Origin: a virus
Strand: one strand, 5' to 3'
Length of the DNA: 23,061 nt
Virus record (IMG/VR): IMGVR_UViG_3300035206_000570
Location: 1-23,061 of that record
The position numbers and the translations under genes were made by a program. Positions 15,869 through 23,061 of this stretch are shown one piece after another. The notes under the pieces are model-generated. The model saw only the letters and a list, made by a program, of their open reading frames with translations, searched no databases and was not told where the DNA came from. Position 1 is the first letter of the stretch. Each line of letters starts with the position of its first letter.

Positions 15869-15949
15869 ATGGGTGAAGGCGACTGCATCGCGGAGCTGGA
15901 GGCCACGGTCGCGGAGCTCCGCGGTCGTGTCCACCCGCGGGAGAGGTGA
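15869..15949 (+). CDS. 26-aa micro-ORF upstream of the lysin
   Basis: A short frame starting MGEGDCIAELEATVAELRG, with heptad-like Leu/Ile spacing and an Arg-rich end. It has a good ribosome site (GGGAGG, 6 nt from ATG), and its TGA shares one base with the ATG of the lysin gene, indicating translational coupling. It could regulate lysin translation or be a small helix-forming peptide. No homology is recognised. Confidence 0.45.
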   Translation: MGEGDCIAELEATVAELRGRVHPRER

Positions 15950-16401
15950 TGCCCCACCTCGACACCACCGACCCGCAGGTCTACGACCTCCTTCGCGCGC
16001 TCGGCGCACGGTACTCCTGGGGGGCGGGGGACCTGCGGGACGCTGCCGGCCGCTGGCCGGCGGGCCCCTTCGACTGCTCGGGGTTCGCCCAGGCGGCTCT
16101 CCTGCGGCTCCGGCAGGTTCGCCCAGGCGCCTGGCACGACAAGAGCGCGCACGACCTGGCCAACGCCTGCGACCCCGTTGAACTCGCTGACGCGCAGCTC
16201 GGCGACATGGCCTTCTACGGCCGGGGCGGGCGCATCTCCCACGTGACCGTGGTGCTCGGGGCCGGCGTGTGCATCGGAGCTAACGGCGGCGGCTCCAACA
16301 CCAACGGCAACACCCCCAGCGCCTGCGTGCAGGTGCGCCCCATCGTCTACCGCAGCGACTTCGTCACGATCGGGCGGATCAAGCAGGAGCATCGGCCGTG
16401 A
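15949..16401 (+). CDS. NlpC/P60-type endolysin
   Basis: A 150-residue single-domain peptidase of the NlpC/P60 fold. The motif F-D-C-S-G-F has the candidate catalytic Cys at residue 43, and ISHVTVVLG has the candidate catalytic His at residue 98. This is the expected Cys/His pair, with a third polar residue likely in the following GANGGG segment. It cleaves peptide cross-links in peptidoglycan. No signal peptide or transmembrane segment is seen, so release depends on a holin. It starts within the cassette's overlapping gene chain and is followed immediately by holin-like genes. The CDS is shorter than multi-domain endolysins, having no cell-wall-binding domain. Confidence 0.85.
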   Translation: MPHLDTTDPQVYDLLRALGARYSWGAGDLRDAAGRWPAGPFDCSGFAQAALLRLRQVRPGAWHDKSAHDLANACDPVELADAQLGDMAFYGRGGRISHVTVVLGAGVCIGANGGGSNTNGNTPSACVQVRPIVYRSDFVTIGRIKQEHRP

Positions 16402-16694: not shown

Positions 16695-16969
16695 GCGCCA
16701 CCACCAGCGCGGCCGTCGCCACCGGCGTCGTCGCAGTCGTTGTCGCGCTGTGGGCCTGGTCACGTGGCAGGACATCTGCCGGTCCAGGCGTCACGACAAC
16801 CGCCCCCCAGGCGGAGCCGTCGGTGGACAGTCTGGTGGACAGTCTGGTGGACACTTCCGCGGCCATCATCACCGAGGGCGCCGAGGGCGACGCCGAGATG
16901 ATCGAGGAGGCTGCGACCAGCCCGCAGAGCGCTGCGGAGCTGGCGAAGCTCCGGAGGGGGCGGCGATGA
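16691..16969 (+). CDS. Single-pass membrane protein of the lysis cassette
   Basis: A 92-residue protein with a GTG start (GTGA overlap with the holin-like gene). One hydrophobic segment near the N-terminus (about residues 7-23, AAVATGVVAVVVALWAW), then a Ser/Thr/Pro linker, an acidic region and a basic tail (AKLRRGRR). A 12-nt tandem repeat within it encodes VDSL-VDSL-VD. The topology (N-terminal anchor, soluble domain after it) would allow an inner-membrane spanin subunit or antiholin role, but there is no strong coiled coil. Function unproven. Confidence 0.5.
   Translation: MSATTSAAVATGVVAVVVALWAWSRGRTSAGPGVTTTAPQAEPSVDSLVDSLVDTSAAIITEGAEGDAEMIEEAATSPQSAAELAKLRRGRR
16823..16853 (+). repeat. 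12-bp in-frame tandem repeat (2.6 copies)
   Basis: The unit GTGGACAGTCTG is repeated exactly twice and then starts a third time (GTGGACA). It lies in the membrane-protein gene of the lysis cassette and encodes VDSLVDSLVD. Such in-frame repeats can change length by slippage without disrupting the protein. Confidence 0.7.
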
Positions 16970-18783: not shown

Positions 18784-18964
18784 TTTGGCTCGCTGGCTAC
18801 ACAGTACACTTATTCGCATATGCGTACCCGTCAAGCGTATGGGGCCACGATTTTCATATTTCCGCATATTTTGCCGCATCCCAGGGTGCGCGCACACTCT
18901 CACAGACTCCCCAGCGGGCCACGCGCGCCCTCCCGTTGCCGGGCGGCCCCCGCGCGCATAGCGT
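18784..18964. promoter_or_regulatory. AT-rich regulatory gap between divergent genes
   Basis: A 181-bp gap, much AT-richer than its surroundings over its first 90 bp. The minus strand has a TTGACG -35-like hexamer (plus 18829-18834), but no convincing -10 at proper distance was found. Half-sites CGCATA/TATGCG recur (18815-18824 as the perfect palindrome CGCATATGCG, 18863-18868, and CGCATA-GCG-TATGCG at 18955-18969). It likely serves the minus-strand unit and the plus-strand HTH gene. Confidence 0.55.
18815..18824. promoter_or_regulatory. Candidate operator palindrome CGCATATGCG
   Basis: Perfect 10-bp palindrome in the AT-rich gap, within the spacer after the minus-strand TTGACG element. GTAC lies on both sides (18804-18807 and 18824-18827). 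The same half-sites recur across the HTH gene start. Confidence 0.45.
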
Positions 18965-18969
18965 ATGCG
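18955..18969. promoter_or_regulatory. Candidate operator CGCATA-GCG-TATGCG over the HTH gene start
   Basis: Inverted repeat with 6-bp arms and 3-bp spacer that covers the ATG of the plus-strand HTH gene. A protein bound there would block initiation, so autoregulation is plausible. It shares the CGCATA half-site with the palindrome 140 bp upstream. Confidence 0.45.
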
Positions 18970-19261
18970 TATGGATACCACGACACGGACACAGGACACG
19001 CGCGCGGTCATCGGCGCCGCGTTGGTCGACGGGCTCACTGAGGCGATGGGGCTCAGTCGCGCCCAGCTCGCCGACGGCGGGAGGGTGCGGCGTGGCCGCG
19101 TCAGTGAGGTGGCTGCGGGGCGCCGGCCAGCCCGTGTTGAGGAGGTGGTCGCGTGGCTGGATGCTCACGCAAGCGACGTTACGGTGCTACTCACTCGCCG
19201 AGGGGTGGCGGTGGTCACCGGCCCAGTGGTGGCGCTCCCGCCTGGGTCACAGGTGCCGTAG
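18965..19261 (+). CDS. Putative small HTH regulator
   Basis: A 98-residue protein. About residues 14-70 are helical with a Cro/C1-like shape: a GLSRAQLADGG helix, then VRRGRVSEVAAGRRPARVE as possible recognition helix and wing, then VEEVVAWLDAH. A C-terminal β-hairpin (VTVLLTRRGVAVVTGPV) may form a dimer interface. Two in-frame ATGs are six bases apart; the first is in the CGCATA/TATGCG operator-like repeat. No ribosome site is visible, so leaderless translation is possible. Its TAG directly abuts the stop of the minus-strand early operon. Confidence 0.55.
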   Translation: MRMDTTTRTQDTRAVIGAALVDGLTEAMGLSRAQLADGGRVRRGRVSEVAAGRRPARVEEVVAWLDAHASDVTVLLTRRGVAVVTGPVVALPPGSQVP

Positions 19262-19830: not shown

Positions 19831-20435
19831 CAGCCAGTGCGCTCGGGAGCCACCGGTCGCGACGGGGCAGCCTGGGGCCAGTGTGCGGCCGGATCGAAGT
19901 CTGAGGCCAGTGTCAGCAGGTGCAGATAGACCCGGCCGCACTCTGCGACCGACACACCGTCAGCGGGCAGATCGAAGCGCAAGGCTCGCCCCTCGCCGAG
20001 GGGGAGGTCACGGAGAGCGGGAGCGTTGGTGGCCGGCTTCACGGGTGGGGCCTCGATGACGGGGGTGGGTTCTGGTGGAGGGGGCAGCGGCGCTGGAGCA
20101 CGGGGCTCCGGGCGCTTTCGTTTGTGGTAGTGGGTGGCGCAAAACCCCTCCGAGAGCGCCGCCTTCACGCAGCGTCCGCTGGAGCAGAGGAGGCCCGCAG
20201 CGCGGCGTTCTGCGCGGCGGGCCTGGCTGTAGTGGTTGGCGCAGAGCCCTCGCGCCCGGACCTTGGCTCTACACCCCTCGTGCGAGCAGCCCCCAGGACG
20301 TGCGCTGGTGAGCTGCGCCGCCGTCCTGCCGCGCTGGCTCTCGTCGACCTCGAACTCGGCGGCGTGGCGCGTGCAGAAGCCCCCCTTCGCTGGGGTCAGC
20401 CCGCAGCCGCGGTACTTGCATACGTTCTCAGACAT
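19830..20435 (-). CDS. Three-zinc-finger protein (C-x4-C-x9-C-x2-H repeats)
   Basis: A 201-residue protein with three perfectly spaced motifs: C6-C11-C21-H24, C50-C55-C65-H68, C84-C89-C99-H102. The second (CSHEGCRAKVRARGLCANHY) resembles the finger found at the front of HNH-type nucleases in many phages. Here no HNH domain follows; instead a Pro-rich linker (residues 107-137) leads to a C-terminal helical/β part. It likely binds DNA or RNA through three fingers. Start is coupled to the HTH gene stop (TGATG) with GGGGGG as ribosome site. An in-frame extension upstream is inside the HTH gene. Confidence 0.65.
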   Translation of the reverse strand: MSENVCKYRGCGLTPAKGGFCTRHAAEFEVDESQRGRTAAQLTSARPGGCSHEGCRAKVRARGLCANHYSQARRAERRAAGLLCSSGRCVKAALSEGFCATHYHKRKRPEPRAPAPLPPPPEPTPVIEAPPVKPATNAPALRDLPLGEGRALRFDLPADGVSVAECGRVYLHLLTLASDFDPAAHWPQAAPSRPVAPERTG

Positions 20436-20803
20436 CAGCCCCCCAGGGCCCGTGACAGGGCTTCCCGGGTGGCCAGGCCGCGCACAGCCCCCCACAGGGC
20501 GTTCGCCTGCCTCTGGTGCGCCTCAGCACGATCCATCTGCTCCACGAGCTCCGCGAGCCGGTCGCCTTGCTCTGACCGCCGCTCCAGGCCCATCATCCAG
20601 TCCATCGACACGCCCAGCGCCTGACACAGTGCGACCATGGTCTGGCACCGGGTGTCGCGGCGTGCGGCCTCGAGATCGCGGATGGTGCACTCGCTCACCC
20701 CGGACCGGCGGGCGAGCTCGGCTACGGTGAATTCGTGGCTGATGCGTACCTCCTGTAGTCGTTCGGCGACGGAGCCTGGAGATGTTGAGTTGGGGGCGTT
20801 CAT
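20435..20803 (-). CDS. XRE-family HTH transcriptional regulator
   Basis: A 122-residue protein with a clear HTH_3 domain (about residues 12-75): VAERLQEVRISHEFTVAELA, RRSGVSECTIRDLE as turn and recognition helix, then TMVALCQALGVSMDWMMG. The C-terminal helix (EQGDRLAELVEQMDRAEAHQ) could mediate dimerisation. It sits in the minus early operon after the annealing protein, with ATGA overlap. It is not preceded by its own promoter, so it is expressed with the operon and is more likely an early regulator than a stand-alone lysogeny repressor. Confidence 0.8.
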   Translation of the reverse strand: MNAPNSTSPGSVAERLQEVRISHEFTVAELARRSGVSECTIRDLEAARRDTRCQTMVALCQALGVSMDWMMGLERRSEQGDRLAELVEQMDRAEAHQRQANALWGAVRGLATREALSRALGG

Positions 20804-21381
20804 ACCGTCTCAGGCCGGTACAGCTCGGGATGCTCACCGGCCTTGATAGCCTTGAACAGCGCGATCCGGTCCTCACGCGGCCAGTCGCGGGGGCGCCCGT
20901 TACCCAGCTCCTCCATGCGTGCCGCCACCTGGTCATAGGAGAGACCGAATTCGCCACGGAGGGCGGCGCAGAACCCCACACGATCCGCCCCCCAGCTCGG
21001 GTGCTCTGCGGCCTGCCGCGCTTGCTGCATCACGTTCGCCAGCTCATCGGCGCTGGCGTACTCGGTGCCAGCGAACCCCGCGGCAGCCAGGGCGCGACCG
21101 ATCGCGCTGGTCTCACAGTTCTCCAGGGCGCTGGTCTTGTTGATCGTGCTCGCCGCCCGGTACTCCTCGGCGAACCCGACGGCCACTTCCTTGTTGTCAG
21201 GGTTGACGATGGCGCTGCGGAACACAACGCACTCGTCGTCGCGAGAGACCAGCTCGGTATGGATCGCCCAACCGTCCGTGATAGAGTGCCGCTCACGGAA
21301 GCGTTGGACACGCAGAGCCACCGGCGCGTAGTCTTTGCCGTGGAGCTTGATCGTTCCGTCCTTGTTGACTCGTGGTGCCAT
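20800..21381 (-). CDS. Rad52/ERF-like single-strand annealing protein
   Basis: A 193-residue protein. The hallmark INKTSALENCETSAIGRALA (about residues 80-99) plus the preceding αβ domain with VGFAEEYRAA and the N-terminal YAPVALRVQRFRERH matches phage ssDNA-annealing proteins of the Rad52/ERF-like group. Such proteins pair complementary single strands during phage recombination and replication. The C-terminal part is helical (GRPRDWPREDRIALFKAIKAG) and may bind partner proteins. AGGGAG site before the ATG. No exonuclease partner is seen nearby; a RusA-like resolvase lies in the divergent operon. Confidence 0.75.
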   Translation of the reverse strand: MAPRVNKDGTIKLHGKDYAPVALRVQRFRERHSITDGWAIHTELVSRDDECVVFRSAIVNPDNKEVAVGFAEEYRAASTINKTSALENCETSAIGRALAAAGFAGTEYASADELANVMQQARQAAEHPSWGADRVGFCAALRGEFGLSYDQVAARMEELGNGRPRDWPREDRIALFKAIKAGEHPELYRPETV

Positions 21382-21419
21382 CAGTCGTTCTCCCTGTTGT
21401 CTTTGGCTGTGGGGCTCAT
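21381..21419 (-). CDS. 12-codon coupling ORF (doubtful)
   Basis: MSPTAKDNREND followed by TGA. The start overlaps the upstream 51-aa gene's stop (ATGA) and its stop shares a base with the annealing protein's ATG. It contains the AGGGAG ribosome site of that gene. It probably acts, if at all, as a translational coupler. Too short to judge as protein. Confidence 0.25.
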   Translation of the reverse strand: MSPTAKDNREND

Positions 21420-21571
21420 CGCGTCACCATCGACCACCACAGCACCGTGGTCGCCGGCTGAGACAGACACCACAGCACGAGGCCAAAGGCCAGCATGAGC
21501 GCCACAGCGCCCACGTCTTCCTTCCAGCGCGCGATGGTCTCGGGGCTGGGTGTTGGTGAGTAGCGTTGCAT
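21416..21571 (-). CDS. 51-aa membrane peptide
   Basis: Starts MQRYSPTPSPETIARWKEDV, then a hydrophobic segment (about residues 21-47, GAVALMLAFGLVLWCLS). The start overlaps the 27-aa gene's stop by one base; the end overlaps the next ORF by 4 nt. A longer frame runs upstream but crosses two better-supported tiny genes. Likely a small single-pass membrane protein of early expression; unknown role. Confidence 0.5.
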   Translation of the reverse strand: MQRYSPTPSPETIARWKEDVGAVALMLAFGLVLWCLSQPATTVLWWSMVTR

Positions 21572-21654
21572 CAGGCGATATCCATGTTTGAAACGAACAA
21601 AAAGAGGGCGATTGAAACAAGCGACAGGCCCGCGAGGATGTCGAGAGGGGTCAT
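21571..21654 (-). CDS. 27-aa membrane peptide with perfect Shine-Dalgarno
   Basis: Frame MTPLDILAGLSLVSIALFLF, ending VSNMDIA. Almost all of it is one hydrophobic helix. It has the best ribosome site of the early operon (AGGAGG, 9 nt before ATG). ATGA overlaps the upstream 35-aa ORF and TGATG the downstream 51-aa gene. The strong site argues it is truly made. A toxin-like or membrane-signalling peptide is possible; function unknown. Confidence 0.5.
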   Translation of the reverse strand: MTPLDILAGLSLVSIALFLFVSNMDIA

Positions 21655-21758
21655 GGGGTGCCACCTCCTGTCGCTCGCTGGTACGGGGTGAGGTCATCGG
21701 CGTTATAGGGCCGGCAGCCCCATGAGGAGGTTGTGATCTGGCTGAACAGACGTTCCAT
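21651..21758 (-). CDS. 35-aa ORF, first of the minus early operon
   Basis: Frame MERLFSQITTSSWGCRPYNA, then a polar tail ending GGGTP. AGGGG ribosome site 5 nt before ATG, about 32 nt after the expected transcription start. The stop overlaps the next ATG by 4 nt. Soluble and short; no family. It could be a leader peptide for the operon. Confidence 0.4.
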   Translation of the reverse strand: MERLFSQITTSSWGCRPYNADDLTPYQRATGGGTP

Positions 21759-21797
21759 GCTGCCCCTGTCTCGGCCAGCGTCCGCTGCCGCAAAAAA

Positions 21798-21826
21798 ATC
21801 CTACCAGGGGGCAGGCCAGGGGGCAA
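21798..21826 (-). promoter_or_regulatory. Early promoter, minus strand
   Basis: On the minus strand: TTGCCC, 17-nt spacer, TAGGAT, with TG one base before the -10 (extended -10). It directs transcription into the 35-aa ORF and the annealing protein operon. Two direct copies of CAGGGGGCA (plus strand) lie in the spacer. Confidence 0.65.
21805..21825. repeat. Direct repeat CAGGGGGCA x2 in promoter spacer
   Basis: CAGGGGGCA at 21805-21813 and 21817-21825, spaced by 12 bp (about one helical turn), inside the spacer and -35 of the minus-strand early promoter. Such placement suits repressor or activator binding. Confidence 0.5.
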
Positions 21827-21851
21827 GCAGAAACTTTCACACCAGAACCGC

Positions 21852-21880
21852 TTGCCCTCCCGGCCCTCCCGGAGTATCAT
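21852..21880 (+). promoter_or_regulatory. Early promoter, plus strand, probably leaderless
   Basis: TTGCCC, 17-nt spacer, TATCAT. The expected start of transcription, 7 nt after the -10, falls on the A of the ATG at 21887. No ribosome site precedes that ATG. This is the geometry of a leaderless mRNA, as known for lambda cI from PRM. The spacer consists of two tandem CCCTCCCGG units. Confidence 0.7.
21855..21872. repeat. Tandem 9-bp repeat CCCTCCCGG x2 in promoter spacer
   Basis: Two exact head-to-tail copies fill the spacer between -35 and -10 of the plus-strand early promoter. Likely regulator-binding site. Confidence 0.55.
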
Positions 21881-21886
21881 CGGGGC

Positions 21887-22162
21887 ATGGACCTCAACAC
21901 CCTGATTGAGACGCAGATGTCAGCCCGCGGGCTGACAAAATCCGGGCTGTCCGCTGCGCTCCGCGAGAGCGGCGTTTTCGTCAGCCGACAAGCTGTGAGC
22001 GCGTGGGCCAACGGGCGGGGGCTGCCTCACGCTGAGTGCTGGCATGTGCTGGCACCACTGCTGGGGTGCACCCCGGAGGACATGGCACTTGCGCGCTACG
22101 GGCTGCTGTCCGATGAGCGGGCGCAGGCGCTGTCGGCCGAGCAGGGCACGGGGGTCCGATGA
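21887..22162 (+). CDS. HTH regulator, first gene of plus early operon
   Basis: A 91-residue protein with an XRE/Cro-like domain: LNTLIETQMSARGLTKSGLS, then AALRESGVFVSRQAVSAWAN as turn and recognition helix, then HVLAPLLGCTPEDMALARYG. It is smaller than full repressors and has no C-terminal protease domain, so Cro-like or small-repressor behaviour is likely. Its mRNA appears to be leaderless, so it can be made with intact 70S ribosomes. Its stop overlaps the next ATG by 4 nt. Confidence 0.75.
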   Translation: MDLNTLIETQMSARGLTKSGLSAALRESGVFVSRQAVSAWANGRGLPHAECWHVLAPLLGCTPEDMALARYGLLSDERAQALSAEQGTGVR

Positions 22163-22605
22163 GCCCCCCCTTGCCGCCCATGGACCACATGGATCAGGCA
22201 GTGGACGAGCAGGCGGCCGGCGCGCTGGCGCTGCTCGCCGTGCATGTGTACCTCGATCACCCGGGGCTGACGCTCCAGGACGCCCGCGTACAGATCTCCC
22301 AGCGCATCGACGGCCTACGCAAGCGCGGGGCCGCCGTGGTCTTCCTGGGTTCAGGGTTGGGCCCGGAGGCTATGCGGCCGTCAGCGGCGGATCACAAGCG
22401 TGCGCGCGTGTTTGTGCACGGCGCCCCCTTGCCAGTCCGGGCCGCCAGTGTGGAGGCGCTGGGTAGCACCGCTCGAGAGCTGCGCAGGCGCGGGATGCTG
22501 GGTGTGCTGCTGCTCAACGCGTACCGGCTGACGCGTGGGATGTGGCGCCCACAGAGCCCCGGGGACTGGTTGCTGGACAACCCGCCCCGGAGGGGCTCAG
22601 CGTGA
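22159..22605 (+). CDS. 148-aa hypothetical protein, plus early operon
   Basis: Not recognised. An acidic N-terminus (MDHMDQAVDEQAAGALALLA) leads to a helical region, DARVQISQRIDGLRKRGAAV, a Gly/aliphatic segment (VFLGSGLGPEAMR) and a C-terminal part with RRRGMLGVLLLNAYRL and WRPQSPGDWLLDN. There is a hydrophobic patch near residues 20-30, but not a clear transmembrane helix. It lies between an HTH gene and a recombination gene, linked by ATGA and GTGA overlaps; a DNA-related early role is plausible only from context. Confidence 0.6.
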   Translation: MSPPLPPMDHMDQAVDEQAAGALALLAVHVYLDHPGLTLQDARVQISQRIDGLRKRGAAVVFLGSGLGPEAMRPSAADHKRARVFVHGAPLPVRAASVEALGSTARELRRRGMLGVLLLNAYRLTRGMWRPQSPGDWLLDNPPRRGSA

Positions 22606-22835
22606 CGCCCACAGAACACCTCGCCGTCGCGCTGCTCGAGCAGTACGGCGCCAATGCCGTGGCCCGAATGCTGGATGACGCCGAGAACGGCCTGGCCGGC
22701 CGCGTGCCAGGGCCGGCAGACGTGCCGGCAGACATCCGGGCGAGGGCCCTCTACATGCTCGGCAGCTACGAAGCAGGGTGGAGATCGCTGGTCCGCCCGA
22801 TCGAGGTGTGCAGACCGACCGTGAGGGCGAAATGA
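22602..22835 (+). CDS. 77-aa hypothetical protein, plus early operon
   Basis: GTG start with GGAGGGG ribosome site, overlapping the previous TGA (GTGA). Mostly helical: HLAVALLEQYGANAVARMLD, then a Gly/Pro linker, ADIRARALYMLGSYEAGWRS and a basic end. No known family. Its stop overlaps the resolvase ATG by 4 nt. Confidence 0.6.
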   Translation: MTPTEHLAVALLEQYGANAVARMLDDAENGLAGRVPGPADVPADIRARALYMLGSYEAGWRSLVRPIEVCRPTVRAK

Positions 22836-23061
22836 CCGTGCCCGCCCTCGACTTCCGTATACTCGGCCAGCCAGTCCCCAAGGGACGCCCGCGTCTGGGT
22901 AGCAGAAAACAGACGTACACCCCAGCCAGGACCCGCGCATACGGCGGCAGCGTCGCTACCCAGACGCGGGCAGCCATGCGATATGCCAAGCTCCGGGGCG
23001 CGGCGGCGGGCCTACCGGTCGCCATAGAGCTGGACATCGTATTTCAGCGGCGCTCCGACCT
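22832..23061 (+). CDS. RusA-like Holliday junction resolvase, N-terminal part
   Basis: The first 76 codons are present; the gene runs off the window. The start has the classical RusA opening: LDFRILGQPVPKGRPR followed by TYTPARTRAYGGSVA, and a hydrophobic segment AIELDIVFQRRSD leading to the acidic catalytic region. RusA cleaves Holliday junctions symmetrically. The catalytic Asp residues known from RusA lie further downstream or at the very edge here, so catalysis cannot be checked. ATGA overlap and GAGGG site support the start. Confidence 0.85.
   Translation, partial: MTVPALDFRILGQPVPKGRPRLGSRKQTYTPARTRAYGGSVATQTRAAMRYAKLRGAAAGLPVAIELDIVFQRRSD

Follow-up and report, generated by a model that had tools for sequence, protein, structure and literature searches.

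The closest described counterparts of the region analyzed here are the PY54 cI/cro immunity region and the 33-34 control region of mycobacteriophage BPs. In PY54, the cI and cro mRNAs are both leaderless; the CI sites show only marginal similarity, and Cro recognizes one site apart from them (PMC4488713). In BPs the promoters are likewise divergent; O_R sits within the P_R spacer, and O_Rep is a distinct site (PMC4557955). Leaderless genes in Actinobacteria and Deinococcus-Thermus are marked by a TANNNT hexamer roughly 12 bp upstream of the start codon (PMC3160421, PMC12340547), and leaderless starts are common in high-GC Actinobacteria and Deinococcus.

The window, by which we mean the whole stretch of DNA analyzed, is a fragment of viral DNA, 23,061 bp long, with a GC content of 68%. 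Its divergent region resembles that of PY54 in having small HTH regulators and an mRNA predicted to start at the AUG, and in both cases the operators (here candidates) are not simply common to the two directions. Unlike in PY54, only the rightward gene looks leaderless and the leftward operon opens with small peptides rather than a repressor; the likeness carries no claim of sequence relationship. With BPs the region shares a short intergenic stretch from which two promoters diverge, an operator (again a candidate here) inside a promoter spacer, and a Cro-like gene at the head of the rightward operon. The BPs operator, however, is built on a 12-bp palindrome, whereas the repeats found here are direct and in tandem, and no integrase is recognized among the genes examined in this 23-kb fragment. 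As in the leaderless genes of Actinobacteria and Deinococcus-Thermus, a ribosome site is missing and the −10 lies some 12 bp upstream of the ATG; the present case is a viral record. Overall, this is an ordinary-looking phage control region, and switches like it have been described from other phages. An earlier note had regarded separate operators as unusual, shared ones being the norm; PY54 and BPs provide precedents that contradict this view.

Predicted divergent promoters and operons

The promoter elements, their geometry, the operons, and the repeats are legible in the sequence itself (Table 1). Each operon needs a promoter within 21759-21886, which is where the predicted pair sits. All of the sequences that the earlier note named for the two promoters were found, including TTGCCC as −35 and a 17-bp spacer in both directions. 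Both −35 hexamers and the −10 TAGGAT are imperfect matches to the consensus. Under relaxed sigma70 criteria (at least 4 of 6 matches per hexamer and at least 8 of 12 overall), four sites occur in the whole window, compared with 9.0 in shuffles, and the two at 21798-21880 form its sole divergent pair. In 1000 dinucleotide shuffles of 21750-21949 no such pair arises; this figure overstates the surprise, like that for the tandem repeats below, because the tests were picked after the feature had been seen. The predicted leftward start lies near 21791.

Table 1. Positions of promoters, repeats, and genes in and around the divergent region, numbered from the first letter of the window
Feature	Coordinates	Strand	Details
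Leftward promoter	21798..21826	−	−35 TTGCCC (21826-21821), 17-bp spacer, −10 TAGGAT (21803-21798); 8/12 consensus matches
Rightward promoter	21852..21880	+	−35 TTGCCC (21852-21857), 17-bp spacer, −10 TATCAT (21875-21880); 9/12 consensus matches
12-bp tandem duplication (11/12), CCAGGGGGCAGG/CCAGGGGGCAAG	21804..21827		Fills leftward spacer and −35; putative operator
Exact 9-bp tandem duplication, GCCCTCCCG x2	21854..21872		In rightward promoter; putative operator
Inverted repeat GGGCAAGC/GCTTGCCC	21821..21857		Arms mainly the two −35 hexamers
Perfect 20-bp palindrome TGTCAGCCCGCGGGCTGACA	21918..21937		Inside HTH gene, codons 11 to 17; possible autoregulatory site
91-aa small HTH protein (Cro/CI type)	21887..22162	+	Predicted leaderless mRNA; HTH_31, fold model
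Second rightward gene	22159..22605	+	ATGA overlap; no function assigned
Third rightward gene	22602..22835	+	Overlaps both neighbors; no function assigned
RusA-like Holliday junction resolvase	22832..23061	+	PF05866 E=3.9e-6, phrog_140; cut by record end
First leftward gene, 35 aa	21651..21758	−	AGGGG ribosome-site-like sequence; leader about 33 nt
27-aa probable membrane peptide	21571..21654	−	Ribosome site AGGAGG; hydrophobicity judged by eye
51-aa probable membrane peptide	21416..21571	−	Hydrophobicity judged by eye
Putative Mgm101/Rad52-like single-strand annealing protein	20800..21381	−	phrog_11717
HTH_3 regulator	20435..20803	−	ATGA overlap with preceding gene
Second leaderless-type promoter	18936..18973	+	TTGCCG-17-TAGCGT-6-ATG; gene 18971-19261 (weak HTH match)
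GCRTATGCGTA pair	At 18816 and 18961, within 18813..18971		Candidate operator common to both directions

Both operons are tightly packed, with genes that overlap by a few bases. The rightward order is the HTH gene at 21887, the genes at 22159 and 22602, and RusA at 22832; leftward from 21758, three tiny genes are followed by the putative annealing protein and the HTH_3 gene. Judged by consensus and geometry, the region would share with lambda-type switches a pair of divergent promoters in one intergenic region. Lambda-type switches also have an HTH gene at both ends of that region; here this holds for the rightward end, and in the leftward operon the HTH gene comes fifth. The 91-aa rightward protein matches HTH_31 with E=3.8e-5 and 24.3 bits, below the Pfam gathering cut-off of 27 bits. 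Its predicted model is all-helical (pLDDT 82), and its best Foldseek matches are weak ones to XRE-type regulators such as ClgR and P22 c2. The function given for the putative annealing protein is taken solely from one relative, its best phage-record match, which is annotated as Mgm101-like.

Predicted leaderless starts

The earlier proposal that the rightward start falls on the ATG, with no ribosome site, is borne out as a prediction. Only 6 nt separate the rightward −10 from the ATG at 21887. TATCAT begins 12 bp before this ATG and the −10 at 18971 is spaced equally, as expected for the TANNNT mark of leaderless genes. The nearest GGAG is some 11-14 nt away from the ATG at 21887, upstream of the −10 and of the predicted mRNA start, and a GGGG stands one base away from that ATG. 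When the gene starts of the window are compared, no usable Shine-Dalgarno (SD) sequence is found at 21887 or 18971; an SD-like sequence precedes most of the other genes, and several of those that lack it overlap the preceding gene. In the whole window, the strict geometry TTGCCN-17-TANNNT-6-ATG is confined to these same two genes, with one occurrence each, compared with 0.003 occurrences in shuffles. Its presence at the second gene supports the leaderless start and serves as an internal replicate of the earlier claim.

For this second regulator-like gene, 18971 is a better start than 18965; its HTH profile match is weaker than that of the 91-aa protein. Both genes open across a divergent intergenic region. 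The one at 18784-18973, from which the predicted leaderless gene 18971 starts, is a further divergent control region; its repeats enclose several CGCATA/TATGCG half sites. GCRTATGCGTA stands on both sides of this region, which looks like the usual shared-operator arrangement.

Repeats and candidate operators

In the leftward spacer, the earlier note described two CAGGGGGCA copies 12 bp apart. Both are present (21805-21813 and 21817-21825), but the second runs into the minus −35, and the true unit is a 12-bp tandem duplication. The rightward spacer was said to consist of two exact 9-bp copies; the copies, at 21855-21872, are indeed exact, but the first takes in the final three bases of the plus −35. 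Similarly, the −35 regions do form an inverted repeat with exact 8-bp arms, which amount to the six shared −35 bases plus two. Because six of the eight arm bases are the hexamer itself, this repeat does not count as independent evidence for an operator. With tandem repeats that are putative operators and an inverted repeat that is mostly −35, the claim of distinct operators for each direction is unproven.

Two tandem repeats within 90 bp arise in 0 of 3000 shuffles of the region (a figure overstated in the same way as that for the promoters), and tandem repeats of period 8-15 number only nine in the whole window. It is unlikely that both promoter spacers would contain such repeats by chance. 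GCCCTCCCG has three copies in the window, two at the rightward promoter and one against the −35 of the 18971 promoter, and thus all copies fall at the two leaderless promoters. With one mismatch allowed, the sequence is not enriched in the window. We rejected the idea that the two spacers hold copies of one operator, as their likeness is not significant. Phase variation by tandem-repeat slippage was also set aside; loss of one unit would leave a spacer of 8 or 5 bp, and the promoter would be destroyed rather than tuned. The palindrome TGTCAGCCCGCGGGCTGACA starts 31 bp into the HTH gene, and a palindrome of at least 20 bp is found somewhere in 28 of 300 whole-window shuffles. The candidate operators are the two tandem repeats, the palindrome at 21918-21937, and the DNA between the −35s.

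Relatives and host

Searches with the HTH protein (against viral and genome collections), the neighboring proteins, the DNA, and the repeat sequences gave no informative relatives that carry the control region. The sole viral match of the HTH protein (L003) was judged unrelated, as it is a contig of 40% GC with only a 16-residue stretch in common. The capsid relatives (L006-L009, 48% identity) match the window in the order of their head and tail genes, and contain neither a match to the 91-aa HTH protein nor the strict leaderless motif. Two phage records from different metagenome samples (L010-L013; 32 and 31 kb) also follow the head/tail gene order of the window, with 24-48% protein identity. 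A search for the host via prophages gave no identification. A lysis/lysogeny switch is a possible reading of the region, but neither an integrase nor a full-length repressor is visible in the 23-kb fragment.

To the left of the control region lie head and tail genes and an NlpC/P60 gene. The protein encoded by the latter (15949-16401, after the tail genes) is a possible endolysin or tail-associated hydrolase. The late region also contains a tandem 12-bp repeat with about three copies of GGTGGACAGTCT (16821-16855).

Proposed mechanism and alternatives

We consider it probable that this is the control region between divergent early operons, with a leaderless HTH gene rightward, an SD-led operon leftward, and HTH proteins that probably repress at the repeats. 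For promoter activity, transcription start, host group, and which protein binds where, we infer the following. The interval 21759-21886 would separate the two early operons of a tailed phage whose host is a high-GC bacterium, probably actinobacterial or of the Deinococcus type. Rightward transcription would start at or within a base of the 21887 ATG, and the small Cro-like HTH protein, translated from a leaderless mRNA, would head the operon that leads to RusA. The leftward promoter would produce an SD-led mRNA for small membrane peptides, the putative annealing protein, and the second HTH protein. By binding the repeats over the spacers and −35s, either or both of the HTH proteins probably shut the promoters off. 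A more specific version, in which each early promoter has its own direct-tandem-repeat operator in the spacer (12-bp left, 9-bp right), different HTH proteins recognize these operators, and the 9-bp unit acts for 18971 as well, is distinctly unlikely.

It is quite possible, if short of probable, that the promoters are real while the tandem repeats, rather than being operators, arose by recent small-scale duplication within a C-rich spacer. Regulation would then take place elsewhere, for example at the 20-bp palindrome or in the AT-richer 25 bp between the −35s, and only the operator step of the mechanism would be affected. The C-rich character of the repeats, the lack of significant likeness between the spacers, the unenriched one-mismatch copies of GCCCTCCCG, and the position of the perfect palindrome just inside the HTH gene all fit this account. 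On the other hand, two separate duplications, a number that none of the 3000 shuffles reaches, fall exactly on both promoters, and the 9-mer also adjoins the −35 of the other leaderless promoter.

That a single protein shuts both promoters from one symmetric operator over the two −35s, as in shared-operator switches, appears unlikely. The exact inverted repeat (arms 21821-21828 and 21850-21857) suits such a site, but its arms are largely the −35 hexamer and lie 29 bp apart, start to start. Finally, the leftward promoter might be no promoter at all, with a stem and T run there terminating antisense leftward transcription, which we regard as highly improbable. A terminator-like minus-strand stem with a T run does exist at 21815-21800, where it overlaps the minus −10. 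However, such matches are as numerous in shuffles, the stem folds no better than chance, and no convincing leftward gene lies upstream, while the leftward operon requires a promoter at precisely this location.

The principle behind a leaderless divergent control region is already known. The window offers a clean example, in which a phage keeps ribosome sites for most of its genes, yet two divergently placed regulator genes, one HTH and one with a weak HTH match, use identical leaderless promoter geometry. In similar uncultured phages, this geometry could help to predict the host group and the promoters of regulators.
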